This document shows, one piece after another, positions 2,013-59,556 of a stretch of 64,000 bases of DNA; position 1 is the first letter of the stretch, and every line of letters starts with the position of its first letter. Made by a program: the position numbers and the translations under genes. Under the pieces are notes generated by a model. The model saw only the letters and a program-made list of their open reading frames with translations. It had not been told where the DNA came from and ran no database searches. Location: positions 27,488,107-27,552,106 of the forward strand of contig OU744448.1 of the NCBI GenBank assembly GCA_916610825.1, read 5' to 3'. Source of the DNA: Haliclystus octoradiatus (lineage: Eukaryota > Cnidaria > Staurozoa > Stauromedusae > Haliclystidae).

Positions 2013-5000
2013 ATGAGAAAGTTCAATTTAATTCTTTTAACATTTTTATGGATAATCATTGTTATTTTATTAAGAATATGCAGTCGCTCAATCCAATGGA
2101 GACAAGAAATTGAAGAAAGATTATATTTTGCAAAGGTAAAAGTTACATGTTAATCATTAGAATATATATATAAATACATATATAATTATGATATAAAGTA
2201 ATTATATAGGCAAAACATCAATTTGAGTGCTCAATGCTAAAAGAAGAGCAATATAAATAGTAGGTCAAAGATTACGAATTTACGTGGAGTAAATTCATGA
2301 TCTTTGTTCTACTAATGATACATACATGCAGATACAAAAAGTAATAATATAACATTATTTGTTTCAATATTATTGACTGTTATATTAGAATGAGATTCAA
2401 AAGTCGAAATATACTAGAATTACGCTACTTAAAGTTTCACACCATAAGGTGATCATCAGGCGATTTATTTCAACTAGCTCTAATATAGATAGCTACAAGA
2501 TCCTTTTGAGGTATTCACAATAGGATTTTGCTATTTCTTTCATTGACTATTAGTTGGATAGCCGTACCATTTTAGCATTGGAATATCTGCCTGCGTCGAC
2601 ACAGATTAATAATCCATAGATACACTTGACTGGCTCAAGTCCCGCTATGTGAAAACATAACATAATCGAGTTTGTCGTTGAAACACTATTTCTATAGAAA
2701 TTATTTGTATGGCCTAAATCGAAACATAGATTATTATGGTTGCTCTATTATCATATTAGCCTATACATGGAGTTTTATACAAATTGAAGTCAAAATTAAA
2801 GAATGATCTGGATAAAGGCTAAGAACGTTTCAGGATAATACACGGGATAATATACCGGTACTTCACGCTGTTATATATGATACGATACAATAATGGCTCA
2901 GTAGTTTAATTGTATGTTTTTTTGACAGGCAAGGTATAAAAACAAAAAAAATTTTCCTCAAAACAATGTTTTGCACAAATAAATTGACACAAACATAAAA
3001 CAAGAAAAACTTTTTTTTAAGAATTTATAATGTTTCCATGATTATTGTCACTAACATACAACAATAGTGAAATAATTGCAAGCAGATGATGATATAACTG
3101 TTATAGCCACACACAAAGAAAACACCAATCAAATTTACAAGTTACAGGTGTCATAGTTAAGCAAAAAACAGTGAAATTTCTCTTATTCTTACTTTCACAA
3201 TTAAAATGGAGGCTCCCCCAGACGATTAGTATTCGCTACAGATGTTTCAGAAAACTGATGCGTGATACAGATGTTACTGACAAATGTTTAAAATCATATA
3301 AATAATTAATAATTAATAATGAGGTACAACAATGTGAATAACGCTATCGGCATCCGTGCATCCGTGGGTTTTTTAAACATTCTTTTGGCGGTAGCCTCAT
3401 TCCATAAAGTGAAAAACATGCCACATATACTTGTACACGTCTGCGTGGAGTTGAGGGCCGTTATGGAATGAGGCTATTTTCGCGGGGTATACTATTATGA
3501 ATATAAAATGGGGAAATTACACATGGGCAGTATTATTTCATTTTTAAGACATTAGAAAACGAGATATAATAATGTCCGCAGTTAAAAATCCCCTTTACTG
3601 CAGCTAATCGGTCGCAGCTATTAGGTTAATCTGTTCAGCTAAAAAGCTATTTCACAGCACCTAATTAGCAACAGCCCTAAAATATTGTTAAAGTCATAAA
3701 ATTGACTGGCGGCCTTTGCGCTCAGTCTTCGAATATGCACTGAGTAATTATTATACATTGCTTATGACCTGAAATATGGCATTCACTTTTCAAATTTGAT
3801 CAAGCAAGGTGCCATGTCCAATTTTGTACCTTATCAAGGTGAAATGTATGGATGAAGTTTTCGTAGAAAATTCTGGAAGCGATAATGATACCGGAATAAT
3901 AAATGAGCAATATCTTTATTAATTTTATATTTTCTTTCTCTAGCTGTGGATAACCACTGGATCCAATATAATAATTTTAGAAGACAAATCATTAGGAAAT
4001 ATAAGGTGAGTGCTTATATAATATCCCTCCTAAATCCGATACGGTTGATTTCTTAGTCCAATTAAACTTTTATTCTTGAACTCATAAAAGATTGGTGAAG
4101 TCTATTATAGTTTACTGTGTGCAAAATAATTTAAAATTTATCAAATTCGAACCATAATTTCTGAGTAACCCAAACTAAAATTAGAAACAACTAAACTACC
4201 GTACAGAACCAAATTTCAATTTCGGAAAACATGATATTGTTTAATGTGTTTCATGCACTGATCTATATAATATAGATCAGTGGTTTCATTTTCATGTTAG
4301 GGAATCATCCATGAATACGGACTTTGCTCCATCGCAAACTCTTGGGCGCACTTGGTATGTTGGGTCCAGGGTTAGGACTCGAGAGGCACTTCGAGAAGCT
4401 AGAATAATCCGTGCATGTGGGTATGCTAGAATAAGATATAGCCTATGGCTCATTTATTTATTACGCTTCACTTTTTAAATTGTTTCCCAATACCAATCGG
4501 TTCAAGAACTTTAGGATGCGGCAAAACTGTGCATGAACTCTTGATCAATTAACCACACGCCTCAGTAAAAAACAAGCTCTTATAAGCTCAATTTGCGTTC
4601 AAACGAATATTACTTCAACTTTACATGCGTCTAGAAAAAATATAGACGGTCAGCCTACAGGACGAACTCTTGCTGTATACACGTTCCCATTTTCAATATA
4701 CGCGATCTAAATTTGAATAATTCTCTACCAAAATTTGATAACAATTCTCCCCACGATTGAATTGTGTTATAAAGCTGTTCTTATTTTTGTATTATTTATT
4801 ATAATACCTTATTGGATAAGTTTCTACTTAAAGAAGTGGATGACGAATTATAATTTTTATTACAATAATTAGAAGGTAATAAACGATTTTTCCTTGCATG
4901 TATTTCATGATGTTTCTACAGTTTCAGACAAGGTATACAATGTCTATATGCAATCCCTAGTAAAACGTCAAATTTTATTGGTCTTACGAGATGTGATGCA

Positions 5001-7514: not shown

Positions 7515-7684
7515 ATATAATAAAAGGAGTCAAAGACTACACATTCATAATTGTTGCAAATAGTTTCATGCTTACGCAATCATCAGATAACTCAAATGAC
7601 TATGCTAAAAATCTGATGATTGCGTAAGCATAAAACGATTAGTAACAATTATGAATGTGTAGTCTTTGACTCCTTTTATTATAT
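7515..7684. mobile_element. 170-bp palindromic element with a hammerhead core in each arm
   Basis: Arms from 7515 and to 7684 are near-perfect inverted repeats around a short spacer. On the minus strand the left arm reads CTGATGA (7580-7586), a TGC/GCA stem II and GAAAC (7563-7567), then GCA where GTA would be expected. On the plus strand the right arm reads CTGATGA (7613-7619), the same stem II, AAAAC (7632-7636, first core G lost) and GTA (7642-7644). Each arm thus has one core defect. The element begins 40 bp after the lectin stop codon, and its terminal AATAAA (7519-7524) is the best poly(A) signal for that gene. Confidence 0.7.
7519..7524 (+). terminator. Poly(A) signal AATAAA of the lectin gene
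   Basis: This is the first canonical hexamer after the stop codon at 7472-7474. It lies inside the terminal inverted repeat of the foldback element, so the transposon may have supplied the 3' end signal. Confidence 0.5.
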
Positions 7685-10429: not shown

Positions 10430-10512
10430 ATATATAATAATAAAAAAATAAAAAATCAGACATTCATATTTGCTACTATTAGTTTCACGCCAAGGCGATC
10501 ATCAGGCAATTT
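10430..10512 (-). ncRNA. Hammerhead ribozyme candidate (best minus-strand copy)
   Basis: On the minus strand: stem I 5' strand TTGC (10506-10509), CTGATGA (10499-10505), stem II CGCC/GGCG with a UU loop, GAAAC (10482-10486), a 5-base loop, GTA (10474-10476), then GCAA (10470-10473), which pairs perfectly with TTGC. All conserved core positions are present, and stems I and II differ in sequence from the 2.4 and 59.3 kb copies while remaining paired. As in the other copies, stem III is only AC/GU and stem II opens with a U-U mismatch. Such short stem III forms usually work better as dimers. Confidence 0.6.
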
Positions 10513-11269
10513 AGTCTGTGAAAAATATAATCTGTAAAAAGTACCTTTATGTAAGTACCTTTATATTACTAAGTTTGTGTATAAAGAAGCTAAACCCTTG
10601 ATATTTTTGATTTTTCCTATACCATGATTTTTCATACATTTGATTTTTCCTCTAACGGATCATTTTAAGAAGGTTTTTATCCATCAATTAAAAATATTAG
10701 CTGAAATGCTCAAAACGTTTATTTTCCATTTTATGACATCATTAAAATATCCAAAAATAGAACCAATTGAGGTAGGTCTATCATGAAATCGATTCCCAGA
10801 TCTTACTAAATGAATGCTCTGCTTTAGTATGCAAAATTTTAAGCAAATTGGTGTAGAAATGGACAAGTTATTTAAAACCAAGGCAGTCCTTCTAAAGGCC
10901 CTGGCAGTTGGCCCTTATATTTTTAAGCCTCCTTCTTCCAAGTTGACAACAACAAAAATGTCAATATAAGCATCTCACCAGCTAATCTTTTTTATACAAA
11001 ATACAATTTGACATAAATCCACTGTGCTTCCCTGTCTATTCAAAACCTCACAACGACATCTGCACCGAGCCGAGACATCCACATTCATTCAAACGCGATA
11101 GTGATGATTGTAAGTGGAATAGCTTTGTGTTTAGGATGAAAGTTGGTACTTATTGACATCCTAGGTTTAATATGTCTCCTAAAGAGAATCGGTATCACAA
11201 CCCGCTTAGTATAACTAATTTTTCAAAACCTCTCCTATCAAACTCAACGATTTCAATCCGGCTAATATC

Positions 11270-12474: not shown

Positions 12475-15400
12475 CTGAGAATGATCTTTATCAACATGTG
12501 TTACATGGTGAAGTAGAATTAGAATCATTACTTATAACACATTTACAAAATACAAATGCTGATGATGAATCATTAGTATTTATTCCAATGGAAAGAAAAG
12601 TATTAAAAGTAGCCCTTGAACATTTAAATGAAGCTGTATCAACTGCAAAAGAATTAGAAAATGTTAATGTAAGTTTTGTTCAAGCCCAATTAACGCCTGC
12701 GAAATAAAGTTCATGAGTTCATGAACGTGAAATTGCCCAAAAGTTCATGAACTGTTCATGAGCCAACAAAAAAATGTTCATGAACTGTTCATGAAGTTCA
12801 TGAACTGTTCATGAACTCATGGATTTTTTTCGCAGGGGAAAATATGAACTAAAATGGCACATTTTATTTCATGGCGTAGAACGGTTGAGTAACTCAAACT
12901 GCCTCATTTATTATGCAAGTATCGATATCAGTTATTTACAGTTTTTAATTCATGAACGTTAGCTGTTAGATGGTCCAATTTAATTTTCATAGACTTTTTC
13001 ATGAACAGTTCATGAAACTTTGCAATTTAACGTTCACGAAGTATTTTCACCGGGAAGCCAATAATAAGGGGTTACTAAAAGGAAAAGTCAGAATAAAATT
13101 AAATCATCATTTCACATACAAATAAGACAATACAGTCAAATCTGCTATAACGGCCACTCTGATAGAACGGCCACTCATACAGAACGGCCACATTAAGTAT
13201 TTCTCCTGCCATTTTCTTTTGTTTTCTGTCCCTATAGAGCGGTCATCTCTCTAACGCGGCCAGCGGCCACTTTTTATCATTTGTTTTGTATCCAAACATC
13301 TCATACAACGGCCACTTTTGTATATTTTGTCCGTGTTTCTTTGAAAGTTATACAATTATTTTGTAAACAAGCGATTTCAAAACAATAGTTTGCATGAATA
13401 GTTTATGTAATTCAAAGCAGACGTGATCGAATTGCGTTTAATTCTTTTGTTTGTTCAAGTGTGAAAGGTCAACACATTAGTGTGAATGTCAAAAAAACGT
13501 GAGCAATTTGAACGATAAAGCGACGCGACTAACAAACAAACACGGAGAGAATATTTTCTTGCAAGTTTACAACTCTAACCATGCTCTCATTATTCTAACC
13601 AAAATATCATTAAACTGAAGAAGTCTCATCTTTTTCGAAATAAATTTAATTGTTGCTGTATTTTATTCATCTTTTTTTGCTGACTATAATTTATCATTCA
13701 ACTCTGCTTGAACTTTTCTATTTTCTATCAACATTTACTTTTTTGTTATTTAATATAAAGTAATTTATTATTTGAATAAAGAATTATACTACAGTTGTAG
13801 TTTCATTTCTCAATTCTCATTTATTTTATCTGTGATGAATTTGCAATATCCTTGTGTTGGTTTGCTTTATCCATTGTTCTATTCTATTGTTCTATGATTC
13901 TATTGTTTTTGACAGAACGGCCACTCTTATATAGCGGCCAATTTACGGCCGGCTATTTAGTGGCCGTTATAGACAGATTTGACTGTAGCTTCATTCGCTT
14001 TCAATGACAGAGCAAAACCACATTTTCTTTTATACATATATGGGATATTTAGAAAGGAAACCTCACTTACCTTAGATGGTTTTCAGGAAGTTCCCTCTGG
14101 TTTGCTTGGTGGCTGGTAATATTGTTTCAAATTCCAATGATAGTAAGTTTGATGACACTATTTCAGAAATGTTAATATCAATAGCAAAAACGCTTTTAAG
14201 TTACAAGTCTTTTTTCCTGGAATACAATAGGCTTTACAGTTATACAGAAATATATATGTGTAGTGTATGCTTGTTTGATCATACGAAAAGAGAATTATTA
14301 CTTGATAAATATAATAACCCTATGTGTACATGCTTTCTTGAAAAATCTTATGATCAGTTGATTGATCAATTGATTGTTGCCTGTTTTAATTTAGAGATGT
14401 ATTTGTTCATTTTTTGAGTATAGATGTGATTTGAATATTTATAAAGTATACGTTTTAATAATAATAATATAATAATAATAATGGTGGGATTGTTCCACAT
14501 CAGTTCTTGGTATAGTGCTCAATGAAAATTCCAACGTAAATCTAGCGTGTTTCATTTTTGACTCTCATTCTAATGTATTTATTTCACACATTTTAAATTT
14601 GAAATTTCTGGTGCCAAAAGTATGATTCAAATGTTGGTGTTGCATTGGGCTTCAAAAGCCTATATTGATGATTGTAGTCACTATGCATATTCAGATATAT
14701 TTCCATATTATAGGTCGCACAGAAGTTTACTGCTGTATGTTTGCTTGCTAAAGCAAATTTTGTATCTGGTAATTACGAAGGAGCATTACGGTATCTAAAT
14801 GAATTAGAATTTAAGGATATCAACTATGATGCATTTCCAAAGCGAGATCAACTTCTTTTATCTGAAGCTGCTGCATTAAAAGGTAAATTCTAGACTCGCA
14901 TGCTACTGTTCGTGAACCATGAGTTTTGCAGGGTTAAAAGCTGCTACAGTCAAACCTGTTTGTAACAGATCTACTGTAAATAAACTTACTGCTTTGTACA
15001 GTACTATTATATACTATGATACTTTATGCACTTTATGCATTTTGAATATCTGAAAACCTACTGAAACCATTACTAGAAACTTACTGGATAGGCCTACTAA
15101 ATTAGGCACTTTTATGTAGCTTTCAAATTTTAATTAAATAATTTATTTAATAATAGACATTACTCTTTGATGAAATGTGTTTTGTAAATTTTACAATCAA
15201 ACCGATTTGATAATGAAGAAGAATTGTAAAATTATCAAAAATCTCATTGATATGCAGTACCCTGCCTCATTTGCTCAACTATCTTCTTGGGTGTTCTAAA
15301 ACTCGAGTGTGCAAACATTTATGTAAGTCTTTATTTTTAACGGAATTATGTGCATAATTAATGATTATTACATTCTTCTCAGGTCTTTCAATGGAGTATG

Positions 15401-18400
15401 TTGCTGCTATTCAAGACTCTCAATGCGTATTTGAAAATGTTGCATCTTGCTATCTATTATCTACTGAAATTGCATTATTGGTTTTAACTGAAGTACACAA
15501 GTTTGGTAGTTTGAAACGAAATCCAGATCAAGAACCTGTTCCTGTTGATATTGGTGTTTTCATTAGTACTGCATTTGTGCGCTATTGTCAAATACTATTG
15601 ATCATGGGGTAAGTTGTTTTATTAGATTTTGGAATTTCATTCCTGTATCTGATTGGTTCAACACTTTTTTCCTTAAAATTCAACAAACATGCAACAACAG
15701 TAGTTTCAACAGAAGGCTCAATACTTGAATGCCTTTCCCCTGCGAAAAACAGTTCAGAAGTCGATGAATAGCTTGTGAACAATTCATGAACTGTTTTTCG
15801 CAAGGATTAAGATAATTATTAATAGAAAGTGAATCTTCAAATTAATAATTCGCTGCTTTCGAATTAATATTTCATAGTTAAGCTACGTTAGGTTGTATCA
15901 TTCCATTGCCAATGTTGTGAGTACTCGTTACAAAGGTAACCCGTTACTTGGTACTCGTTACTTGGTTTGAAGTAATTTTAAGGGTAATTAATTACTTTTT
16001 TGAGGAAAGTAATAAGTAAGTAATCAATTACTTTTTCAAGTAATGAGTATTTGCAGCCATAAAGTAATTGACGTTACTTCCCGATTACTTTACGAAATAC
16101 TTTATTCCCGATTTATTTCATTGTTTTGTTATTATGAAGTAGGTATATTGTTTTCAGTGCATAATTGTTGTAGAGTCCTAACTGATTTGAAATGATTGTT
16201 GTTTGTGTGAAGCTGGTTATTGTTTTCTAAATGTTTTGATTTTGAAATTATATCAGCAGCAGCAAGATTTTCGAAATAAACTATTTCATTGTTTACATAG
16301 AATTTATTCGTCACGCCATTTGACACTTCTGTTGTTCAAAGTTGAAAATGTCAATACATTTAGACTTGATGAGAAAAACACGCAAATGTTTTTGACTTAT
16401 GAATGAATAATATGATATTTCATCGATGAAAAACATAATCTTTTGCAACAATTTTTCAAAAAGTCATATTCAAACACAAAAATTGACACTGAGATTAATC
16501 ACATTAATTTGACAAAACTATTCGAAAAAAATTTAATTATTTTATAATTTCTTTTTTACATGCGTATGTATATTTATTGTTTGGTCGTTCAAAGTTTTGA
16601 ATATTTCAATGTTGTTTGACTATGGTTCAGCTACAGACAGTAAACATATTATAATAAACGCTTCCTGTCTAGCCTAAAATACATATAATTTTGAATCTTT
16701 ACAGACAGAATGTTTTGATAAATATTCCAAAAGTAACAAAATAATTAGTAATTAATTACTTTTTCGTCGAAGTAATTAGTAATTTGTAATTAATTATTTT
16801 TCTCAGAAAAGTAATTAGTAATGTGATTTTTGAATTTTTGGTAAAAGTAATTTGTAATCTAATTAATTACTTTTTCAAGTAATTCTCACAACACTGTCCA
16901 TTGCTTTGTTGTTTATTACTTATATTGTTTCCAAAAAACCAAACCATAAAATTAATGTTTGAGAGTTCCATGATAACTAGCCAATCATAACACATTCGAA
17001 CTACGACGCGTTATGTCATAAATATGCTTAGTAAGCACTATTGATATTTCCTTATAATTGTGAGATTTGTTTGTCAGCATAATTGTTAACCAGTTATTTT
17101 AGATCCAGTTGTTTTCGATCCGAAATTCCTATTAGACGAAGCCTTTAATACTTTCCAAACCCTTTCTTTCGTTAGATACGAGCCTAAACTGTGTCTGGAC
17201 GCTCTTCGTTAGGCTTGGTTTGCAGTTTTTGATAAGAAAAAGCTCCTTTAAAACGATCTGTTTTAGTCAAAAATCATTCAAAGCTTTGTGTGTTCCAAGC
17301 GACCGCAATCGTCCAAAGTCGATACACTTTAACTTATCAATCCTCTTATAATACCGTTGGAATTTGATTTAAATAACCTTATCCAATAAGATTGAGTTCT
17401 ATATTTATTTTTCGTGCTTTTTATTTTATTTAAATCTTTATATTATCATCGAAAGAAACGATTTTAAAACAACAACATTTGGAAATAAGGCTTGTATGTT
17501 ATAAATTTGATAATGCAGTCAGTATTATTCCACATCAATTTCCTTTTTTTCTAGGAGCGTCCATGAAGCAATTAACTTTTGTCGTCAAGTGCTTCAAGCG
17601 ACTGAAAGCAGATCAACATTAACGTTGAGAAAGGTAATATTTTCTAATACTGTAGCTTAACATTTTTTCAAGGACTTACACATTAATAATGTTACATTTC
17701 CAATCCTATATAATTGTGATTGACAGCACTGTCTCGTAGGAACAATTGGTTGTTTGTTTGAGAGACATAACAAATGTAAGAACATGTGTGCACCGGCAAG
17801 GATTTAAACCCCTGTCTCTCGCACAATGTGCGGCTACTCTACCACTGAGCTACTAGTGCACTCATTTCTGTAGCTAAAAATTTTGTGCTTTATGCGATCC
17901 TCAGAAAATATTTATATGTATAGTATTTAGCTCTCTTTAAACCATTGGCTTTGACACTGTTTATTTGCTTGTATTCTCATGTTAAGAAATGGTTCTGAAA
18001 TCACGAACATGAAATTTCCCAATTGTTCATGAACTTATGAATCTTTTTTCACAGTAGTTTAACCAGTAACCATATTATATTGTTACCAATATCTACAAAT
18101 ATAAATGCCAAATTCTGTATGGTGTGTGTAATGTAATGTGGAATATAATTCAATTAAACAACATTGGAATGTGTATTACAAGTTAGAACATAGTAAATAT
18201 ATTTCATAGACTGTGCGGTCCAATTTTCCGTTGTTTTCTCTATCGTTTTTCAAAATATCGATTTTTTCAGTCGTTGTTCGGATGAGCTTCGATTTTTATT
18301 TCATTTGAGAAAATATACCATTTCAATTGTATCAATTGTATGGCTTTCATAATTTAGATTTCAAATTTGATGACATAATTTTATATTGACAGCTAGAAGT

Positions 18401-21400
18401 CCAATAAATAGATTTCTCAAGTTATGATTTCAAAGTTTCAAAATTTAAACCTATTGTTGTTTAACATTTTTTATTCCGAGTAACTGCAATGTTTTATCTT
18501 CTAAGGACTTACTTCATACCGGAATGATGCCTATAAGAATGAAATGCCTGACAAAAACAATCCAAATTATAATATCCTAGACCCCGGAAGGCTAGACAAA
18601 ATTCAGAAGAAAATTGATGTTTTTAATGATTTTCTGGTCAAACCTCAACAAGAAAATTCAGAAGAAAAAGTTGAAATGCCCCTAGGATTTCAGAAGGCTG
18701 AACCTTTTGTCGGACCCTGGTTAATATTTTGTTATGATTTTCTTTACAGAGAATCACTCTTGAACTGGCTCACATGCTATTGACAGGGATTTCATCATCA
18801 ACATTTCATCCTCCTGCCAATGAAATGAGATCTCGCTCTTGTTCTGCAGGTGAATCTCATGTTGATAGTTTTCAAACTTCTTCTGCAATGTCTCCTTCGT
18901 TATCAAGTAGTTTTAACTCTCGTCTACTTCACAAGAAAGAAGGGTAAGGTTGTCAGCATTTTGTTTCTAGTCAATAATGTAAATAAGATATACTCACATC
19001 AGTTTGTAGTCAAATCAGAAATTATGGACTGTATGATCAATTACCCTTGTATTGTTAACATCATCTCCTTGCTAAAAGTAATCTTATAATGCATGGAATT
19101 TTCTATCTGAGAAATTATGCTCTTTTTAAGAAATAAGATAAATTCTCTTTATTATTTTGGCTTTAAGTCGGCCACTAGGTATGTCACAAATTTCACAAAA
19201 TCCCACTTACTTTAAGTGTTGTTATTTATACTGTTCGTCGGTCTCCTAACAGGGCCTGTCACCATTTTAATCCCTGTTTTAAATCCTTCCTATTTATTCT
19301 TTGTTTATCTGATAATGCTGTTGAATTAAAGTTATGTAACAAATGTTCAATTATCCATCATCAGAGTCTGCCAAAAGGTTCAGCCTTCTGGAATCCTAAA
19401 GGCATTTCAACATTTTCTTTTGAATTTTTTGTTGAAGTTTGACCTATAAATCATAAAAATGTAAATTTTCTTTTGAATTCCTACTTATGTTGTTGGAAAT
19501 ATCTTATCTTATCAATTATCTTATTTTTGAAAACAATTTACTTAAAAAGGCTTTATTTTCTCTGGGCCTAATGCTCTTGCTTATTCTGCTTACAACTACA
19601 TCTGGCCCTTCTAACTTTGTAAATCTTTCACTTCTATATTCGTTATTCTCACAGCGAAGCATTCAACCCAGGCCCTAATATTTTGTTTATTTGAATACTT
19701 ATCTACGTTATTGTTGACAAGACAAAGGGTTTTTTTTAGCAAGGGATAGGAAACACTTGACTGATTATTTTTGAAATGTTGATAACTGCCTTGTGTTGAT
19801 TTACTCAATTTAGTTAATTTACTTGATCTTTTTAGGTTGTTTTGTCCAAACGATGAACTTGAAGAAGCTATCCTTGTTTTGCTATTGAATGAATCTATGG
19901 TTAGTTAGTTAACTTGAAGTGTACATCCTTGATATTTGGGAGATTTCGTCATTAGATAGAAAATATTTTTCTACTCGCACATGTTGTTCTTGCGTTTTCG
20001 CTTTGCCAAAGTGACGATTTTGGGCTATTTTTGTGTCTCATTATTATTAATATACCAAAAACCCGTTTATTTTGCACAAGAGGGTTCACACTGGAAATAA
20101 TACAGTGTGCAAAACCAAATGACTTTCTGATTTTGGAAGGCTCGGCTCAAGATGTAGAGGAATATTTAATTACAATTTGTCGGCCAATTACAGAGATACA
20201 AGTCTCTTGAAAGTCAATCGTTTTTAGTTTTGGATTACCACTTGCCTATAACTCTCTACCAAGTTAATGTAAAGAATTGCAGCAACGTTTTTGCTACTTT
20301 TAGACAGAAGCTGAAGACTGAACTTTTTAGAGAAGCGTATATTGCATTGTAACCTTTTTAATTCCTTATATAGTTATTGATTTTAATTTTTAAATTGTTT
20401 GATCTTTTATCATTGGTGAACTTTTAAATATTTGTATATAATTATTATTTATTTATTGCACTGCACATTGTGGAGATTTTCTCGTAAAGGGCGCTTTATA
20501 AATACTCATCTTATTATTGTTATTATTATTAGTTGCTACAAGACACTCATATGCTTAGAATTACTTACCACGGTGACATCATTACAATAATAAAAGGATC
20601 GATTCATTTTCCATGACATTTTTGTCTAATTGAAAGTTTGCATAATTTTCACAACTTTTTCATTACGTTGTTTAACACTGTACAATAGTTTTAATTTAAT
20701 AGCAAGAAAACAATGGAATTGTATCCATGATTTTTCAAATGTTTACTTTTTTTGCAAACTTTCCACAACTTTCACATAGTGGTAGTTTGAATTACTTTCA
20801 TGAATAAAAATTGTATTTTGTTCTTGATATACCTGTTGGAACAACTATAAAAGTGTATTTAACTGAAGCTGCTGTGACATACATTTGACAGAAAAAGCAA
20901 TTGGTAACAACATAATTTAATATTTTATCAAGGTCAACGTTTCGATCACCACTAGTGATCATTTTCAAGATATTTAAACAAATATTTACAAGTTAGTACT
21001 TATATTTATAACAAAATGAAAATTATTACATTAGAAATATTGACAATGGAAACACTTTTTAAAAAATGTTAAAGAACTTTCGATCATTATTGGTGTGCGA
21101 AACCTTGATCTTAATAATATATTAGATTATGTTGTTACCAATTGCTTTTTCTGTCAAATATAAATGTATAAACCACTACAGTCAAACCTGTTATAACGGT
21201 CACCTCTATACAGCGGCCACCTGTCTATAGTGGTCACTCTTGCAATGTCAAAAATAATATTTTCTATTGAATCAAACCTGTATATAAAGGCCACCTGTCT
21301 ATAGTGGTCAATTTATCTACCTCTCTAACTTACCGTTATATACAGGTTTCACTGTATATGTTTGTGTGAATCTATGGTTGTTCATGTTTGTTTGTACATT

Positions 21401-24400
21401 ATATTGTTTATTATGGATCCAGATACTACATTCATGTCAATCTGCTGACCAACAAACTTTAAAGAAAGCATTACCATCAACAACAAGAATGTATGGCTTA
21501 CTTGCTTTGGCGTTGCAGCAAAGAGGACAACTAATGTTGTTATCTGAGGTAAATTTTATCACAGAAAAGCTTTAAACAGTTCTTAATTAAAATTACTTTT
21601 TTTTGCTTTATTAAGCTATGCATATATTTTCATGATTTATTATTTTTATTTTAGAGTTTAGAGAAAGGTTTAAAAGTTTCATGTAATGATTTTCATTTAT
21701 GGTTTCAATTTGGAATTTCTTTAAGTTGTGCTGGAAAGGTAATTATATGCAGCTAAAAATTGTTCACAATTCTGACTATATTTATTGAACTTATTATTTG
21801 ACATTCATAGTTTAGGTAATCTAAAATCGTAAAAATAACTGAAATCATATAACTTATCAATATCTATTATAAATAAGGGCAACACTCTGCCATGCAAATA
21901 AGCCTGAAAACAGACTTTATCACAATAGAACATTGGTCTAACAAACTGATTTAAAAACAGATTTCTCCACTGTGAAAAAAGTTCACGAGTCCACATCATT
22001 CATGAACTGGTTCATTAACTCTTCTCAAAAAATATTCATGAGTTGTTTATGAAGTTCATGAACTTGTGAGCGTTTCTCATCACATTAGCCTTGATTAAAA
22101 AGATATATCATTAAAGTCTACAATTCTAGTAAACTTGGCTGGTGTGTTTATATTATATTAGGTGAATCTGTACTGATCGTGGCAAGCCAATAGACATAGC
22201 TGACACCATTGAATGCCCTAACAACTACGCTTTTGATTTATATTCCAGTTTCAACACTCTTTATTTGTTCTCAATCATTGTTTGAAACTTCAAGAAGAAA
22301 ATTGTATGGTATTATTGCAATGCGCCAAATTGTGCATTAATCATCTTTCCAAGGTATTTATTTTCAGACTCACTTTAGCAGGTTTCACATTACTGTATTT
22401 TTTTCACCCTTGTACAGTGAAACCTGTACATAACATCCAGCCAAGAGAGGTAGATAAATTGACCACTATACGCAGGTGGCCTTTATATACAGGGTGGGTT
22501 CAATAGAAAATACTATTTTAGACATATCAAGAGTGACCACTATAGGCAGGTGGCTGCTATATAAAGGTGACTGGTATAACAGGTTTGACTGTAATTGTTA
22601 TTACTTTTACATGTTTCCTATTGGAACCCTTACAATAAACCAAAATGTCATAGCGTTCAGACTATGTTTGAAATTTGAGTTCTTGTGTCTGATCTAAGAA
22701 ATCAAATTAAAATTAATTAATTACAATTTTATATTCTTGCAAAATCAATCCATTAACATTGTTATGAATAGCTTGCAAATTTTATGGGAAGGTCATACAC
22801 AGTTCATAAACATCTCATTAATGATATCAGTCATTCACGAAATTTTTCATGTACATTACATATAGGTAGAATGAAAATGAGGGTTATTTTATTGAACTTT
22901 CCAAGAGCTCCCTTATGAAAAAATCTTCTGAGTTCTTGAACAGCTTGTGGAAATTGGGCCATTCAGTGTTTGTGAACATTTTTCACGGGGTGATTCATTA
23001 GCTATAGTGACTATTCACAAACCATTTCTCCTGCGAAAAAATTGCTTAGCTTTTTTCGGTTTGAACTGTTCATGAACTGTTCATAGACAATTTGTGGACA
23101 GTTTGTAAGCTTATAAATAAAAATTGGTCAGAAACATTTGGCCAGATTTTCATGAATCTTCCCATGAACATTTCATTATATGTTTATCAAAATTAGGCCA
23201 TTTAACACAGACTGAGGAAGGAATTACTGTAATATTAAATACATAAAATCAATTTTTAAGTAACTTTTATATTTTCAATTTCTCATTAAACTGTGAAACA
23301 TTTCCCCCTTCTTGACATTGTACACTATGTTCATCATTCTCATTTGTTATTTCACACACACATTTTCGGGACGTGAGAAAAATTGGGATACCAAGTCATA
23401 TGGGATACTTTGGTAATCGAGGAAGTCAACACTAATTTGTATGAGGAATGTAATGTAGAAGTTCCCTTTGCATATAGGACAATAATCAAGTGGACATTAA
23501 CCCCTAGGTTATACGCTGTACTTTCAAGACGTGATCCATCAAAAATAATAATATAACTTGGCAAAGTACAACGATTCATTTTTAGGTTGAACCAAAATCG
23601 AAAGTACGGCTGATTGAGGCGTAATCATGCTGTAGGTAGAAATTTATTTATGAAGCCATTGACGACAAACTAGTAGATGTGGATTAAAATGGCAATACAA
23701 ACAGCTGGGCTCTATATATATCACTATAAATCTTGGATATACTGAATCGCTACTGAAAACCCTCTGAAAACATACTGGAATGGGATTGGGTACTAATATA
23801 AAACCATACTGAAATTCACCAAACTTTCTTATTCTACTGAAAAACTACTGAATTGCTGATTTTTGAAGATGTTTGCTACTGAAAATGTTGTAAGCTACTG
23901 ATGAAAAGAGCCCATTTAGTAGCCCATTCAGTAGCCTATTTAGTAAGTTTTCAGTAGGTTTTCAGTAGGTTTTCAGATTTTCAAAATTCAAAGTGTACAC
24001 AGGGTTGATTCAATGATTCCTACTTTTAATATCACTACAGTGGCTGTTGTAACAGGTTAAATTGTTGAGGTTTATTTGGTCATATACATTTGTTTGAAAT
24101 ATTGCTTTGTTTTATTTAGTTTCAAGAAGCATTGAATTACAGTATGAAAGCTCAAGACTGTGCTGATAATCAATTCGATAAAGCGAATGCATTGTTAGCA
24201 TGTGGTATATCAAGTAGTCTACTTTCTAATCAGGGTAAAATAATGATCAACATCTTTATTGTTTTGTACAAGGAAAGAGCCAGACATAAAACTTTGAATA
24301 GCGTTAACTTTTTCATATTCTATATTAAATTTTCTACGTCATTTTCTGATCAAGATTCAGATTGTGATTTTCTGACGCATTTTTGTTTTCTCCTTACGTG

Positions 24401-27400: not shown

Positions 27401-30400
27401 ATAGGCGTTTCTCACTAAGAAAGAGCATTCACGATAAAATGCTGACAAACCAGAATATATCAAAACAGCCCTTGGCAAACCAGACTGGCATTCACAGTGC
27501 TTGTTTTCCCTTTTCCAGTTTCCAACCAATTACTATACATATACCTGCAACCCTCTTAATGAACTTTCAAATAAAGAAATAATATCATGTGTGTAATGAG
27601 TACGGAAGCTTGATTGATACTTTACTAAATTGAAAAGAGCATAGCTGATGTGGTCAGTCTCTTTGAAAATGTTTTGGTTAGAATTCACTGAAAAAAGACA
27701 TCAAATTCCAAAAGAATTAAATTTTAAATCTGTTTGCTTACTGATTTAGTATGGCGAGGCTCTGGAGGTAATCGACTCAACCCTGGCGGAATACCCTGAA
27801 GATTTTGGGTAAGATTATCCCATGTCATCACTATGTCTGTAATAAACCTTTAAGTCACCCTACTAAACGATAGTTAGTTGGGATGTTTAAATAGCTATAC
27901 TTGAAGTACACTCTATTGGACAGTTAGTCTAATAATAATTTATTTTAGGAATTATGCAATCCCTTATTGTATCCAACAGTAAATGGTTTGGACTTTAGAC
28001 CTTTGCCTGCATGCTTCTGGGTTCAATCCCCGGCAAGAGCACTATTCGGACCGTAAAACGCACTTCAAATAATAAATAATTAGCCAGCCTAGCCTATGAA
28101 AAAAGCTACTAGATTACCCGGTTTGTGATGATGATAGATACAGTAGAAAGTGGTTATAAAATCACTTTTATAACGGATCACTGTTTAGAACATACTGAGT
28201 TTATACTGACGTTCCTGGTGAAATATGTTATCTTTCTCCTGAATAATATTTGGCTGTAGCTGCACATTGTCTATAACATACTTTTGGAAGTTCCCTAGAC
28301 ATGTCTGTTATAGACAGTTTCTACTGTAAAATTCAAAAAGCATACATTTCTAAATAAGGACATCACTTGTCACACAATTCAACAGTGGGACCATCTAGCC
28401 CAGCGTGAACAGGATTTGTGCTCATGGATGTGTCCCACACTCTGCTGACATTCTGTATTTTGATTCAGTACAATCGAAACTGTTATAACAGTCACCTCTA
28501 TAAAGCGGCCACCTGTCTATAGTGGCCACCTGTCTATAGTGGTCACTCTTACAATGTCTAAAATAATATTTTCTATTGAATCAAACCTGCATATAAAGGC
28601 CACCTGTTTATAATCAGCTGGCTGTTATATACAGATTTCACTGTACCTTAGCTTTCATAAAAATTATTTGCTAGTGCTTGGCAAATTGTAAACATTTTTA
28701 AATACATATTTTCCTAGGTTACTACAGACAAAACTTAAATTGGTTGAAGCCTGTCATGGTGGAAAAAATGCTGTTTCTATTGGACAACAAATGTTAGAGA
28801 TTTGGAGCTTAATGTATGACACAGAAGATGGCATGAAGTATGTAAATATATACTGATCGTGGAAACACAATCATATACAAATGGGGTCTTGGTGTAATTG
28901 TTAGGGCATTAAACATTGTCCTGCAAGGTCTGGCTCAATCCCTGGAAGTTGACATTACATGTTGAGGTCAGGAAGGGCATCACCAACCAACCAACCATCA
29001 CGGTGAATGAAAGCTACTAGATTGTCCTGTTTGTGGGAAAATATGGTCAATTCAAAAAAAAAAAAATAATAAATAAACACAATTGGTTAATAGTTCATTA
29101 ATGGATTGTGAATAGTCGATAATTATCAAATGGTTTGTAAAAGTGTAAATTGTAAACATATGACGTCAGTCTGTTTTTCATTAACTTTCGTTTCATAAAC
29201 AGTTGCTGATTTGTGAATAAATTACAGTTCTTAAAATTATTATGATTACCATATATAGTAATTACTGATAACATTTCCTCTACAATTTCAGTGGACAAGC
29301 TCTAACAATTCCTTTGTTGTCTGGTGCTGAAAAACCTCATTCAATGAACCGAATGACCCGTACTGCATCTGACTCATTCCTATTGGATGCAACAAAGTCT
29401 CTCAAACAAATGACACTTGCAGCTGATACGTTTCAGCAAGATGGGACTGATGGTGAGTTAATGCAATTGAAGGATTTGTAATCATGGATAGATAAGGTTT
29501 ATCATAGGGCATATGGATACATTGAATATACATACACAGGAGTCCTTGAGTCCTAGATTCGGGAAGAGTAGAGCAAATTCTGTTGAAAATTGATATTTTA
29601 GATGATTTATTGGTCAAATATCAACAAACAATTCAGAAGAAAATGTCGAAATTCCTCTAGGATTTTCGAAGGCTGAATCTTTTTGTCTGCCCCTTTGCAT
29701 ACCTGTTGGCAAATGATTATGCCTATGACCAATGGATTCAAAACCAAGCTGATATCATCAATTGTTTCAAATTCAGCAATGATACACAACACAATGGCCA
29801 CGCTTACAACAGAAATCTGTTGATTGTGTTTACAAAATAAGGAGACAATAGAATGAAAAGCTTAAAAAGTGGTATACAGCATTCTGTGAAATGAACGTTG
29901 AATTAAATAATCCATGTACATCCCCTGCGAAAAAGAGTTCAGGAGTTCATGAACAATTCATGAACAGCTCAGGAACCCTCGCAGACAGTTCATGAACAGT
30001 TCATGAACATTTCATGAAGATTTGGGGCCATTTAACATTCATGAACTGTTCATGAACTCCTGAACTGTTTTCGGAGGGATGATGCGACGTTACATACTGC
30101 TAGGATATTGCACAATGAAATAAGTAAAACTCACAAAGAAACTGGTAACCAAACTGTGGATTTGAAATTTATATTTATTTAAAACTATTTATGAAATTTA
30201 TGAAAACTATTGAACTGCAAGAAATGATTAATAAGTTATGAAACAGATCAATGTTTTAAGTAAGGCTTTATTTTACTTTATCTATTTATTCATATTAACT
30301 TAAACCCCATGCAAGCATGTACTATTTTAAATTCTTAGTTACTACTTATTTTAATCCTTAATTGCTTTATTTTCATGTAAAGATGATGATGATGTATACA

Positions 30401-33400: not shown

Positions 33401-34674
33401 AAATTCTAGTTCAGTACATTAGGCATACCTTGCAAGTGCAAGAAAAATTTCATTAGAAACTTACATTTATGTTTCTGAAGGAAGATAATGGCGACGTCAA
33501 TGATTATAAAATTACAGCAAATGAAATAATGACAGCTAACACCTTTTTCAGATAGATAATTAATCGATCATTTTGCTCTTGTTATTTCACTGTCAACTAT
33601 TCTACGTTCTGTTTTCATTAGGGAATATTGAATTCGGCAACTGGTGATTTTGTATTGGCTGAGAAATACCTTCGTGATTCACTTGATAACGATCCATCTA
33701 TTCCAGCTGTTTGGTAATTATTAATTTATACTACAGTGAAGCCTGTATATAACAGCCAGCTACTAGAGGTAGATAAATTGACCATTATAGACAGGTTGCC
33801 TTTATATACAGGTTTGATACAATAGAAAATACTATTTTAGACATTGCAAGAGTGACCACTGTAGACAGGTAGCCGCTTTATAGAGGTGACCGTTATAACA
33901 GGTTTGACTGCACAATCGAATCCATTTAAACGACTATGTATATATGATAGTTTTAACTTTCTGCCAGTCAGTCATTTTTAAAGTCTATCAAATAGCAGTA
34001 TTCAATTGAATTAACCCTGTATAAACGACCACCTGTTTATAGTAGTCAATTTCTCCTTATCCACAGCTGTGTGCTACACTCCTAATATTACATGCAAGGA
34101 TTTTTGTTTTTAAGGAACAATCCTTAATAACAGCTATAGTGAAATATCTACAAAGAAATTATTTCAATTTTTGAAATTCTGCAATGGACAATGGACATTA
34201 TAACTTACATTTTTCAGTAGGGACATATATTATCTGTGTAATTTCTTGAAGCCCAGAACCAGAAAATACCAGAATCTACCAATGACGTAGCAATCTCATG
34301 TTTGATTTTTGCTGTTGGTTCGGTCACCGGACATTATGATTTTTGGTAGAGGCCGACTATTCATGTACACATGGCACTTAAACCCCTTATATCGCATTTA
34401 AGTAATCAAATATTGGCGTTATTTCTTTGGTGTTGAAATATATTCAGTGCATGCGCATATGAGCTATGAACGACCTTTACCAAAAATAATAAAGTGTCCG
34501 ATGACCTTTAACTACTTCGTTTGAATCTGTAGGCATGAATTGGGGATTGTGTTGAGTTCAACTGGAGAGCACACAGAAGCTTCAAGTTGTTTTAATACTG
34601 CAATTGAATTAGAGAAGACATGTCCGATTGTTTCTTATACATGTATACCACGGTTACTAAGAGGTGGAAGTTAA
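12475..34674 (+). CDS. TTC7: Tetratricopeptide repeat protein 7 (TTC7), first exon not found
   Basis: TTC7 is the TPR scaffold that, with EFR3 and FAM126, holds PI4KA at the plasma membrane for PI4P synthesis (family knowledge). I assembled 21 phase-consistent GT-AG coding exons: 12475-12668, 14714-14882, 15383-15608, 17555-17633, 18750-18943, 19836-19899, 21423-21548, 21655-21738, 22249-22353, 24120-24234, 24919-24976, 26285-26357, 27217-27318, 27750-27808, 28718-28837, 29292-29452, 30418-30555, 31928-32025, 32691-32795, 33622-33713 and 34533-34674. They encode about 833 residues, so with a first exon of about 40 residues the total fits the usual 840-860. Landmarks matching the family include FCPNDELEEAILVLLLNESM, DFHLWFQFGISL, ALAISPTH and the C-terminal CIPRLL. 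The first exon must end in phase 1. The acceptor at 21422 is weak. The paralogue (7A or 7B) cannot be assigned. Confidence 0.93.
12694..12838. mobile_element. GTTCATGAAC-family MITE
   Basis: Ends CGCCTGCGAAA and TTTCGCAGGGG are inverted repeats, and the interior is mostly tandem overlapping GTTCATGAAC/GTTCATGAACTG palindromes. It sits 25 bp after the donor of the first located TTC7 exon. Related degenerate sequence follows at about 12950-13055. Confidence 0.65.
13133..13985. mobile_element. 853-bp TA-flanked Tigger/pogo-like non-autonomous element
   Basis: CAGTCAAATCTGCTATAACG at the left and the matching inverted end at the right (…GATTTGACTG) are each flanked by TA. Repeated 'aCGGCCACT' words follow both ends, as in the 177-bp family found at six other sites. 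No transposase frame is present. TA target choice and the CAGTCAAA terminus point to the Tc1/mariner-pogo superfamily (inference). Confidence 0.75.
14458..14582. repeat. Fragment of the hammerhead-bearing repeat with (AAT)n tract
   Basis: An (AAT)n run is followed by TTGGTATAGTGCTCAATGAA and TTTCATTTTTGACTCTCATT. The same modules flank the palindrome at 59.3 kb in matching order (59440-59556), but the ribozyme arms are missing here. It lies in a TTC7 intron. Confidence 0.6.
15737..15805. mobile_element. Mini GTTCATGAAC-family MITE
   Basis: CCCCTGCGAAAAACAGTTC and GAACTGTTTTTCGCAAGG form near-perfect terminal inverted repeats around about 30 bp. This short copy defines the family termini well. 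It lies in a TTC7 intron. Confidence 0.7.
15910..16896. mobile_element. 987-bp hAT-like element with 8-bp TSD
   Basis: The right end, read inward on the minus strand, is CAGTGTTGTGAGAATTAC, and the left end is CAATGTTGTGAGTAC. Repeated GTAATTAATTAC-type words lie inside both ends. The flanks are a perfect 8-bp duplication TCCATTGC (15902-15909 and 16897-16904), diagnostic of hAT insertion. No transposase frame is present. It lies in a TTC7 intron. Confidence 0.85.
17788..17862 (-). repeat. tRNA-like sequence / tRNA-derived SINE head
   Basis: On the minus strand there is an A-box-like TAGCTCAGTGGTAGAGTA and a B-box-like GGTTTAAATCC between self-complementary GTGCAC ends. The spacing from the 5' end to the D-stem is too long, and the anticodon and T stems do not fold properly, so this is a SINE or decayed tRNA rather than a working tRNA gene. 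Confidence 0.5.
18541..18720 (+). repeat. Dispersed repeat, family B
   Basis: The segment containing 'aattcagaagaaaa' and 'ttcagaaggctgaacctttt' recurs at 29545-29700 in the same orientation and at about 19360-19455 inverted. The open frame here (18544-18783) is out of frame with the adjacent TTC7 exon and is a by-product of the repeat. Confidence 0.55.
20185..20535 (+). mobile_element. 3' end of a non-LTR retrotransposon (LINE)
   Basis: One frame ends with FRQKLKTELFREAY before a stop at about 20350, which resembles the C-terminus of CR1/L2-type LINE reverse transcriptase ORFs (xxLPxxxR...FRxxLKTxLFxxAY). Downstream, GGGCGCTTTATAAATACTC and a TTATTATTG microsatellite form the kind of 3' tail seen in these elements. 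It is 5'-truncated and lies in a TTC7 intron. Confidence 0.6.
20883..21159. mobile_element. 277-bp foldback MITE with GATCGAAACGTTGACC motif
   Basis: ATTTGACAGAAAAAGCAATT at the left and its complement at the right form terminal inverted repeats of at least 34 bp. Inside, the minus strand reads a GATCAC/GTGATC stem followed by GAAACGTTGACC. That motif recalls decayed hammerhead-like sequences, but the CTGATGA box is absent. It lies in a TTC7 intron. Confidence 0.7.
21179..21354. mobile_element. TA-flanked Tigger/pogo-like MITE, copy 1 (176 bp)
   Basis: CAGTCAAACCTGTTATAACG and the opposite end …ACAGGTTTCACTG are each bounded by TA. Interior words CGGCCACCTGTCTATAGTGG and TATTTTCTATTGAATCAAAC are shared with all other copies. 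It lies in the intron just upstream of the TTC7 exon at 21423. Confidence 0.8.
21985..22085. repeat. GTTCATGAAC-family copy (degenerate)
   Basis: Several GTTCATGAAC-like palindromes lie in a TTC7 intron. Further degenerate copies are at about 18000-18060 and 23020-23180. Confidence 0.5.
22415..22591. mobile_element. TA-flanked Tigger/pogo-like MITE, copy 2
   Basis: 177 bp, inverted relative to copy 1, flanked by TA on both sides. It lies in a TTC7 intron, 60 bp after an exon. Confidence 0.8.
23735..23990. repeat. Dispersed inverted repeat, family C (TACTGAAAACC)
   Basis: Repeats of CTACTGAAAACC at the left and GGTTTTCAGTAGG at the right form an inverted structure. Related partial copies are at about 15040-15110 and 25975-26180, also within TTC7 introns. 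Confidence 0.55.
25335..25560. mobile_element. GTTCATGAAC-family MITE, most repetitive copy
   Basis: About ten GTTCATGAAC-type palindromes are arranged nearly in tandem after a CCCCTGTGAAAA left terminus. It lies in a TTC7 intron. Confidence 0.65.
26763..27080 (+). repeat. Dispersed repeat, family D, copy 1
   Basis: About 310 bp aligned end to end, by eye, with 62118-62425: CCCTACCAAAGGCACCC, GAGCAATGATATTAAACGCT, CAATTCCCTCTGG, TTTGATGTTTTAGA and GTATTTAAACCACA all recur in order. Open frames within it are not conserved. It lies in a TTC7 intron. Confidence 0.7.
27970..28080 (+). repeat. tRNA-derived SINE fragment
   Basis: A B-box-like GGGTTCAATCCCCGGCA is followed by the 'agcactat' motif shared with the SINEs at 42.7 kb and 62.6 kb (minus). 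It lies in a TTC7 intron. Confidence 0.5.
28471..28643. mobile_element. TA-flanked Tigger/pogo-like MITE, copy 3
   Basis: TA-flanked ends CAATCGAAACTG and TTTCACTG. It carries a duplicated CCACCTGTCTATAGTGG segment and an internal deletion relative to copy 1. It lies in a TTC7 intron. Confidence 0.7.
28885..29035 (+). repeat. tRNA-derived SINE
   Basis: A-box-like TCTTGGTGTAATTGTTAGGG and B-box-like GGCTCAATCC are followed by GGTCAGGAAGGGCATC, a body motif also present in the 42.7 kb copy (GTCAGGACGGGCATCC). It lies in a TTC7 intron. Confidence 0.55.
29545..29700 (+). repeat. Dispersed repeat, family B, copy 2
   Basis: It matches 18541-18720 in order and orientation (aattcagaagaaaa, CCTCTAGGATTT, AAGGCTGAA). 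It lies in a TTC7 intron. Confidence 0.55.
29921..30082. mobile_element. GTTCATGAAC-family MITE
   Basis: CCCCTGCGAAAAAGAGTTC at the left and GAACTGTTTTCGGAGGG at the right enclose tandem GTTCATGAAC palindromes. Related fragments are at 30607-30690 and 31445-31562, all in TTC7 introns. Confidence 0.65.
33734..33910. mobile_element. TA-flanked Tigger/pogo-like MITE, copy 4
   Basis: 177 bp, same orientation as copy 2, starting 20 bp after a TTC7 exon. A truncated relative follows at about 33995-34065. Confidence 0.75.
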
Positions 34675-35580: not shown

Positions 35581-35904
35581 ATCAGCAAATCAAATTTATA
35601 GACGACACTCCCGAGTCCTGGAAACCATCTAAGATGAGTGAGGCTTCCTCTCAAAAATATATATATATAAAACTATAGATAATAATTATTATTCATTATA
35701 TAATTGTATGTCTCAATTGCGCTTGCGCAATTTTGAGCACTATTAACTCGGGATGTGTCTATACTATTTGCGTTATACATTTCCCACTACTTCGGTAGTT
35801 TGAGCACTCTGGTATGACAGATGTTTTTTTCATGTGGTGAATTTATTCATCATATTGATTAGCTCATCTTGACTTAGTTATATAACACGCTAAGTCAGTC
35901 CCTT

Positions 35905-35970
35905 GTTCACTGAGCAGTACTGATGACGGCTAATAGCCAGAAACAAGTACTTGTCCGCTGCTATATAATT
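35905..35970 (+). ncRNA. Type I hammerhead ribozyme candidate (best overall fold)
   Basis: Stem I 5' strand AGCAGT (35913-35918) is followed by CTGATGA (35920-35926), stem II GGCT/AGCC with an AAT loop, then GAAA (35940-35943). Stem III ACAAG/CTTGT closes on a 2-base loop, and C35955 sits at the cleavage position (GUC). GCTGCT (35957-35962) pairs with AGCAGT. All conserved core bases and all three stems are present. Imperfections are a C-A mismatch opening stem II and an A-C mismatch at the base of stem I. It lies between the 3' ends of TTC7 (plus) and CRIPT (minus), so it would not be sense to CRIPT. Confidence 0.65.
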
Positions 35971-40517: not shown

Positions 40518-41018
40518 GATGATTCGAAGGATAATTTGAAACGAGTAGCTTAACAATACTGCTCACAATCCTGATCAAAAGCAGTCCTAACAAAATCAAT
40601 AACAAACTTCATTCTTCGCAGCCATTTAATTCTCTTTGAAGAATCGACATTGGAGCCTTGTAATAGATTTGCAACGTAACCGTGACCATTTGTGATTTGC
40701 ACAGAAGTTTTAGACTGGAAAATCACAAGTACTAAAGCTCACGGTCACAGGGATGAATTCATTCGTAGTCAGCCTCGCTATTGTAGTAATCCTCGTTTTA
40801 TAGTTCAAAATGGCTTAAAAATACATTTGGATTGGATTGGAGTCTTGGACAACAAGGTGAATCAGAATCACACGTGCGTATGTTCAGTTTATTCGACCAT
40901 TAACTGCAAGTATAAAACATTCAAACTCAGAACTTATCAAACGTAATATTGTTGATGTGTCATACCTGAAAAGTAGCTTAAAAATTAGATATTATTTACA
41001 TCTATTGTGCCCAAAAGA
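40518..41018. promoter_or_regulatory. Bidirectional promoter interval, CRIPT / EXOSC4
   Basis: Start codons of CRIPT (minus) and EXOSC4 (plus) are 501 bp apart and diverge. Two housekeeping genes in this arrangement suggest a shared promoter. I see no clear TATA box or CpG-rich core, so the exact start sites are unknown. Confidence 0.5.
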
Positions 41019-41765
41019 ATGGCTGGGTTGGAATTGCTTTCTGCTGAAGGCCTCAGGATTGATGGTAGAAGACCACAAGAAATAAGGAAATTTACTGCTC
41101 ACCTTGGTACTTTTTCAAAAGCATCTGGTTCAGTAACATTAGAAATAGGCAATACAAAAGTAATAGCAAGTGTTTTTGGTCCACATGAATGTACAAATAG
41201 AGCAAATGTTTCTCATGACAAAGCAGTTATAAAATGTCAATATTTTATCACAACATTCAGTGCAGGTGAAAGGAGACGTGCTAATAAAATGGATAGAAGA
41301 TTTTTAGAGACAGCATTATTAATTGAAGATGTATTTTCGGCAGCAATAATGTGTCAATTATATCCAAGATCACAAATTGATATCTGTTTAAATGTATTAC
41401 AATCAGATGGTGGTGTATTGTCAACATGTATTAATGCTGTATGCCTTGCATTAGTTGATGCTGGTATCCCTATGTTTGATTATGTATGTAGTTCAACGGC
41501 AAGTCTTATCGATGACAAACCATTGCTTGATGTTAACTATCTTGAAGAAAGTTCTGGTGCTCCAAAATTAACTCTTGCTATATTACCAAGAAATTCCAAA
41601 GTGCTTTTATGCCATATGGATTGTAAATTACACATTGATAATTTTGAAAAGGTTTTAGAACATCTTCAAACTGGTTGCCAAAGTATTTATCAAGAAATTG
41701 ATAAAACTGTAAGAATAGAATGCTCACAAAACTGTATTTCTGAATCAGGATACTCACAGTCATAA
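41019..41765 (+). CDS. EXOSC4: Exosome complex component RRP41 (EXOSC4), intronless
   Basis: A single open frame of 248 residues, against 245 in human. It starts MAGLELLSAEGLRIDGRR, nearly the same as the vertebrate N-terminus, which fixes the start at 41019 rather than the upstream in-frame GTG. It is an RNase PH-fold subunit of the six-membered ring of the RNA exosome, pairing with RRP45 (family knowledge). Landmarks are GNTKVIASVFGPHE, the CQYFITTFSAGERRR segment, LYPRSQIDICLNVLQSDGG and DAGIPMFDYVC, all in family order. Divergence is concentrated in the C-terminal third. The whole coding sequence lies in one exon, and no canonical AATAAA was seen in the next 300 bp. Confidence 0.96.
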   Translation: MAGLELLSAEGLRIDGRRPQEIRKFTAHLGTFSKASGSVTLEIGNTKVIASVFGPHECTNRANVSHDKAVIKCQYFITTFSAGERRRANKMDRRFLETALLIEDVFSAAIMCQLYPRSQIDICLNVLQSDGGVLSTCINAVCLALVDAGIPMFDYVCSSTASLIDDKPLLDVNYLEESSGAPKLTLAILPRNSKVLLCHMDCKLHIDNFEKVLEHLQTGCQSIYQEIDKTVRIECSQNCISESGYSQS

Positions 41766-59291: not shown

Positions 59292-59556
59292 AGAATAAGA
59301 GTCAAAAATGAAACATTCTAGAATTATGCTACTTCAAGTTTCACACCAGAAGGTGATCATCAGGCGATTTATTTCAACTAGCTGAAATAAATCGCCTGAT
59401 GATCACCTTCTGGTGTAAATCTTGAAGTAGCGTAATGCTAGCATGTTTCATTTTTGACTCTCATTCTATAAATGATCTGATTAATTTCATTCAGCACTAT
59501 ACCAAAAACTGGACAATGCCACTATTATTATTATTATTATATTATTATTATTATAG
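59292..59556. mobile_element. Palindromic hammerhead-bearing element with (ATT)n tail
   Basis: The arms 59298-59377 and 59380-59465 are inverted repeats. On the minus strand the left arm has CTGATGA (59357-59363), CACC/GGTG stem II, GAAAC (59338-59342) and GTA (59330-59332), an intact core with weak stem I pairing. On the plus strand the right arm has CTGATGA (59396-59402) and the same stem II, but AAATC replaces GAAAC, so that copy is dead; GTA is at 59427-59429. Downstream are the CACTATACCAAAAACTGG module and an (ATT)n tract, both shared with 14.46-14.58 kb. Confidence 0.7.

Follow-up and report, generated by a model that had tools for sequence, protein, structure and literature searches.

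Minimal type I hammerhead ribozymes reportedly occur in Penelope-like elements (PLEs), in work ascribed to Cervera and de la Pena in 2014 and to Lunse, Weinberg and Breaker in 2017. Their role in these elements was called a mystery in a 2020 review (PMC7761336), and a similar question hangs over the way in which PLEs make inverted copies, for which PMC3846280 favours self-priming and asks for tests. A palindromic loop III has been published as a mark of hammerheads that act as dimers (PMC3088659, PMC6466107), and natural hammerheads with a U10.1-U11.1 mispair have been described, this mispair supporting more cleavage than any other (PMC3088659). In a PLE of Anolis, two reverse transcription start sites flank the tail, the enzyme cuts and extends both strands, and insertion proceeds in vitro without ribozyme cleavage (PMC11167929). 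The 64-kb stretch of DNA analysed here (the window) very probably contains fossil 3' ends of PLEs whose active RNAs would each have carried a minimal type I hammerhead capable of acting as a dimer, and would have been inserted by target priming. The features of the window on which this reading draws are the following:

2386..2480, minus strand: tail-less arm of a family A insertion, bearing the 2.4 kb core; limits approximate
2426..2459, minus strand: core, family A, with stem II CACC/GGUG and stem I CGC/GCG
7515..7684, no strand assigned: head-to-head family C arms forming a palindrome, with the tail motif on the plus side
7555..7586, minus strand: damaged family C core, in which GCA replaces GUA
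7613..7644, plus strand: damaged family C core of the opposite arm, in which UAAAAC replaces UGAAAC
10457..10518, minus strand: family B core plus stem I, with the inner helix UUGC/GCAA adjoining the core, also scripted
10474..10505, minus strand: core, family B, with CTGATGA, U.U at 10.1-11.1, GAAAC, loop III UAAUA and GUA
14433..14594, minus strand: further, related insertion of family A, in which arm start and tail are present and the ribozyme core is not
59292..59467, no strand assigned: head-to-head family A arms of 88 nt, 92% complementary, the plus arm with a damaged core
59330..59363, minus strand: core, family A, core letters intact, stem I CGC/GCA
59470..59555, plus strand: 3' tail of the 59.3 kb insertion, ending in ATT repeats; right limit approximate

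The three minus-strand cores proposed in the initial annotation are indeed present, at 2426-2459, 10474-10505 and 59330-59363. They have the CUGANGA and GAAA segments, the three stems and the NUH letters at the predicted cleavage site of a type I hammerhead core, with three, four and two stem I pairs respectively (at least three in two of the three), and, as scripted, all of them have four stem II pairs and a fully palindromic loop III. The stems as drawn there hold up less well in detail. At 59.3 kb, one pair of stem I (CGC/GCA) is broken, and a stem II of CGCC/GGCG at 10.5 kb leaves just two bases between its arms, so that CGC-CUUG-GCG is the better reading; past an internal loop, the same copy has a possible outer stem I helix, CAGAC/GUCUG, as read from the sequence. 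The stem changes described across three copies are changes between two families, since the copies at 2.4 and 59.3 kb belong to one family (91% identity over 80 nt) and the copy at 10.5 kb to another.

It could be supposed that such cores are chance matches to a short motif, and of the five matches to CTGATGA, gap, GAAAC, gap, GTA in the window, two (at 35920 and 43788) are indeed look-alikes. For the cores reported here a chance origin is practically impossible and is already refuted: shuffles lead one to expect 0.01 such matches, 200 first-order Markov windows held no fully structured core (stem I of at least two pairs, stem II of at least three, loop III fully palindromic), and the 262 Mb assembly contains 3,118 exact cores with positions 10.1 and 11.1 left free, compared with 10 for the reversed control pattern. 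Both look-alikes were rejected as cores, 43788-43823 being without stem I and having a single stem II pair, and 35920-35949 being without a three-pair stem I and having a loop III of two bases; the latter is contained in a repeat at 35705-35967 that is related to L014:928-1356 and L020:355-510. A search of the window with Rfam 15 returned only other families and no hammerhead, either at the gathering score or up to E 10, and the canonical pattern with CGAAAC has no match in the window.

The remainder of the window holds features of other kinds. Dispersed repeats in both orientations (TATAACGGTCACC...) lie at 21154-21324, 28463-28633, 38629-38799, 22413-22591, 33732-33910 and 56868-57042; the TATAACGGTCACC family looks like a pogo-type miniature DNA transposon. 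A tRNA-like Rfam match on the minus strand at 17789-17859 scores 28.3 bits against a gathering score of 29, and ARAGORN found no tRNA in the window. Two long open frames on the plus strand are ordinary animal genes, one for an exosome RRP41-like protein (40989-41765; at most 54% identity to the matches listed) and one for a forkhead protein (47765-48814).

The three window cores share U.U at 10.1-11.1, and this pair predominates throughout the genome. Exact cores with U at both positions number 2,631 (control 2), about 84% of all exact cores, the two patterns being nearly equal in length span, and 20 stretches of 10 kb at set positions yielded three cores, all with U.U, when both positions were left free. 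Among the first 100 cores listed the pair is UU in 77, AU in 12, UA in six, GU in three, GG in one and CU in one, and the canonical G10.1-C11.1 pair occurs in none; by inspection, all 12 AU cores share one stem II type and four of the six UA cores another. The missing G10.1-C11.1 pair does not cost these elements their membership among type I hammerheads, because the exception is already in print (PMC3088659). Nor is the U-U mismatch, which had been taken for a lineage trait, peculiar to this lineage, as it is published for other natural hammerheads in that source and as other copies in this genome, among the first 100 listed, have A-U (12) or U-A (six) instead. Stems I and II each reach at least three pairs in 36 of the 60 loci fetched for the motif from this genome, and do so in four of the 120 U-U matches and 13 of the 123 G-C matches listed for viral contigs. 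Six IMG/VR loci (L233, L236, L247, L248, L255 and L276) are well-formed hammerheads with the usual G10.1-C11.1 on viral contigs.

To compare families, one genomic copy per stem II and loop III type was aligned, giving 12 representatives (alignment A2) of types that we chose and that had been found with a pattern in which most core letters were fixed. Stems I and II and, more tellingly, stem III covary across these 12 families: 95.1% of 143 cells are paired compared with 82.8% in shuffled alignments, 24 cells are changed on both sides compared with 7.9, and the covariation score is 0.481 compared with a shuffled mean of 0.234, none of 500 shuffles being as high on any of the three counts. The number of pairs changed on both sides (seven versus 4.2; eight of 500 shuffles reach seven) and that of further pair types (14 versus 13.2; 195 of 500 reach 14) are weaker measures. 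When the partner is slid, the score does not exceed 0.145. Two warnings apply to these values: the shuffle control is inflated if the sequences are related, and any structure derived from the sequences themselves will outscore its slid versions. Variation on both sides affects all four stem II pairs and two of the four stem I pairs. The claim of compensating stem changes thus stands between families, whereas within family A the copies, by inspection, mostly break pairs and seldom compensate, as dead copies would. Selection therefore acted on active elements and not on the family A copies present here.

The suggestion that the minimal stem III resembles that of hammerheads acting as dimers is borne out by its loop. 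Stem III and loop together form an interrupted palindrome, ACU-N-n-N'-AGU, so that the stem is diminished and the loop pairable between RNAs, as in the minimal PLE hammerheads for which dimers have been proposed. Among the first 100 cores listed there are 83 five-base loops, of which 79 can pair bases 2 and 4 (74 of them by Watson-Crick pairs), with T (29), C (24), A (19) or G (11) as the middle base. Copies within a family are not independent, which makes the count per family the one to trust: the innermost stem III pair is U-A in six families, C-G in three and A-U in two, with a gap in one, such that all 11 families with letters at this place can pair. Because a one-base loop cannot close this innermost pair within a hairpin, we read its covariation as probable pairing between two RNAs. 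Such pairing, between two molecules or between two units of a tandem transcript, would give a shared 8-bp stem III, and the resulting double hammerhead would cut after GUA, although both the action as dimers and the place of cleavage are predictions from sequence. In all 11 representatives modelled with nearest-neighbour energies (family E, its stems being largely broken, was left out of the 12), the double hammerhead is more stable than two single ones by 7.6-13.9 kcal/mol, and unconstrained cofolding finds dimers of still lower energy than the double hammerhead in all 11. When six stretches were folded singly, the minimum-energy folds were not complete hammerheads and were no more stable than those of shuffles.

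Such weak monomer folds might indicate that the element serves the PLE enzyme just as a folded 3' signal for recognition or dimerisation, the hammerhead letters being retained for that purpose and the ribozyme lost or never good, and the Anolis PLE does insert in vitro without hammerhead cleavage, with unprocessed RNA as the main substrate (PMC11167929). We consider this quite unlikely, given that the core letters are constant in 12 families whose stems and loops change, as catalysis would lead one to expect, an argument weakened by a search pattern that fixed most of these letters, and given that U.U at 10.1-11.1 reportedly supports cleavage (PMC3088659). It is also conceivable, but unlikely, that the palindrome in stem III serves mainly as an RNA dimerisation site, comparable to the retroviral dimer initiation site; two PLE RNAs would then travel in each particle and one would be primed from each side of the cut, giving head-to-head insertions of which some, such as L079, are of mixed family.

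Returning to a ribozyme carried by the PLE RNA, its context is seen in 38 stretches around family A copies, which share about 150-400 bp. The units open with TAGAATGAGAGTC-like sequence, which repeats the 3' end in inverted orientation, and close with a tail that contains GAGCACTAT and ATT repeats. The inner stretch of L022, used as a query, led to L067, a 5 kb copy with protein pieces, 3' UTR, ribozyme (one core change, CTTATGA), tail and ATT repeats, at whose 5' end the final 850 nt of the element recur in inverted orientation. A reading of the inner stretch of L012 and L022 as a 5' UTR was rejected, since the matching sequence of L067 lies in its 3' UTR. One protein piece of L067 has 616 homologues at E<=0.001, and the pieces contain what look like reverse transcriptase (YRDDG) and GIY-YIG-like motifs. 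A Pfam search of these pieces found no domain, and a structure model of low confidence (mean pLDDT 56) has as its best fold match, a weak one at E 0.49, T4 EndoII, a GIY-YIG enzyme. The protein pieces are presumably those of a PLE, and since no family model matched them, our confidence in the overall reading is kept at very probable. Membership among PLEs is likely and rests mainly on architecture, namely pLTR-like ends that are often inverted with an optional one-sided tail, as described in PMC3846280, and target duplications of variable length. End repeats stand out against swapped flanks at P<=0.033 in 10 of 24 units, two of the 10 (L031 and L032) being near-identical loci and a third (L075) sitting in ATT repeats, and in seven units P is 0.79 or more. 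The one-sided tail, the variable duplications and L067 led us to reject a DNA transposon with terminal inverted repeats. In the tails of L070, L071, L072, L074, L077, L087 and L049 and at 59470-59500 of the window, a GCTCTG...GAGCACTAT motif recurs across families; it could form a hairpin and is a candidate recognition site for the reverse transcriptase.

The minimal stem III had first been likened to that of retrozymes and satellites; the units resemble the 3' ends of Penelope-like retrotransposons instead. Non-autonomous retrozymes or satellites would consist of 150-450 bp units in tandem, with hammerheads that set free monomers for circularisation, and the setting here, a low-GC animal genome with type I hammerheads in small dispersed repeats, would suit them; L085 even has two copies of one family in direct orientation about 525 bp apart. 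That the elements are of this kind is nonetheless very unlikely. Tandem direct repeats of 150-450 bp with hammerheads do not occur among the 123 listed cores, where neighbouring cores up to 200 bp apart are head to head in 14 of 16 pairs, tail to tail in one and on the same strand in one, which is of mixed family, and the one-sided tail and a 3' UTR held in common with a protein-coding element likewise speak against it.

In the PLE reading, the active RNA would have carried its hammerhead between the coding region and the 3' tail, one arm of an insertion would have been primed at the tail end, and a second, inverted and tail-less arm would often have been added from the other side of a staggered cut, in an order of steps that we infer from the insertions. 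All 14 core pairs less than 150 bp apart are head to head, one of them of mixed family (123 listed cores). By script, the tail lies on one arm in 19 of 23 head-to-head pairs, on both in three and on none in one, and in the three pairs with both, the second match lies, as read, beyond the unit or in a neighbouring element. The palindromes at 7515-7684 and 59292-59467 of the window have one core per arm, three of the four damaged, and an 11-base repeat occurs at both ends of the former, partly inside the arm. In L077 (about 243-402), a long poly(A)/poly(T) lies between the ribozyme arms, a pattern that the copying of a homopolymer at the junction could have left.

Head-to-head arms might come from self-priming on one antisense RNA and not from two RNAs, the model favoured in PMC3846280, and we hold this to be possible, though less likely than not. 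In six of the 19 pairs that allow comparison, the two arms match each other better than they match any further copy, and mean identity is 0.927 within pairs (20 pairs) compared with 0.895 between copies (344 comparisons); in the remaining 13, one or more further copies match as well as the partner arm or better. Arm-to-arm identity is thus not decisive as a test of one versus two RNAs. Against self-priming, L009 joins two subfamilies of family A, and L079 unites a family D arm and a family B arm within a single target duplication (16 bases, one mismatch; P 0.013 in the comparison with swapped flanks), which suggests that two RNAs were primed, one from each side of the cut. L079 could also be explained by an older D fragment that already lay at the target, but this is less likely because the duplication is found at both of its outer ends. 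Both routes may occur, since the average advantage of the partner arm over other copies is slight and yet in six of 19 pairs the two arms are each other's closest match.

Reports already exist of minimal PLE hammerheads, of dimer action, of U.U and of inverted PLE copies. Less expected are the lack of G10.1-C11.1 in the first 100 cores listed and the mixed-family insertion L079, with the two templates that it suggests. Among the literature titles and beginnings of abstracts listed, none joins palindromic hammerheads to two-template PLE insertion, weak evidence of novelty from a scope that subscription papers mostly fall outside. In a dozen families here, compensating changes in stem III speak for an encounter of two RNAs, and the scars of insertion can reveal whether the templates were one RNA or two, so that the role of the hammerhead and the origin of inverted copies both become countable in one assembly.

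The minimal PLE hammerheads known so far (PMC7761336, PMC6466107) are like those described here in being of type I with a minimal stem III, in their PLE context, in their thousands of copies and in their proposed action as dimers. Unlike in the published accounts as far as available, the ribozyme here lies 3' of the coding region beside the tail, often in head-to-head pairs, and U.U is the majority pair, with G-C absent from the first 100 listed cores. The Anolis PLE Poseidon (PMC11167929) also has its hammerhead near a tail that marks the starts of reverse transcription, and the one-sided tail seen here recalls the start sites flanking that tail, whereas the Poseidon ribozyme overlaps the start of the ORF and that of L067 follows the coding region (by inspection, the frame that begins at the ATG of the L067 ribozyme is short). 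Penelope elements of the rotifer Adineta vaga (PMC3846280) share the inverted head-to-head pLTR, the optional one-sided tail and the target duplications, of 8-10 bp in the rotifer; their description favours self-priming, whereas L079 points to two RNAs, and a word search of that source does not find the word hammerhead. Metazoan retrozymes (PMC7229834) likewise place a type I hammerhead in small animal repeats, but they form tandem arrays of 150-450 bp, absent among the listed cores here, and in contrast to their stable helix, stem III is here an interrupted palindrome. Repeat-type hammerheads such as those of Aedes aegypti (PMC3088659) have the same palindrome of stem III and loop and the same proposed double hammerhead; there, the palindromic loop emerged from comparing several ribozymes, while here it is the compensation at the inner pair among the families of one genome that brings it out.
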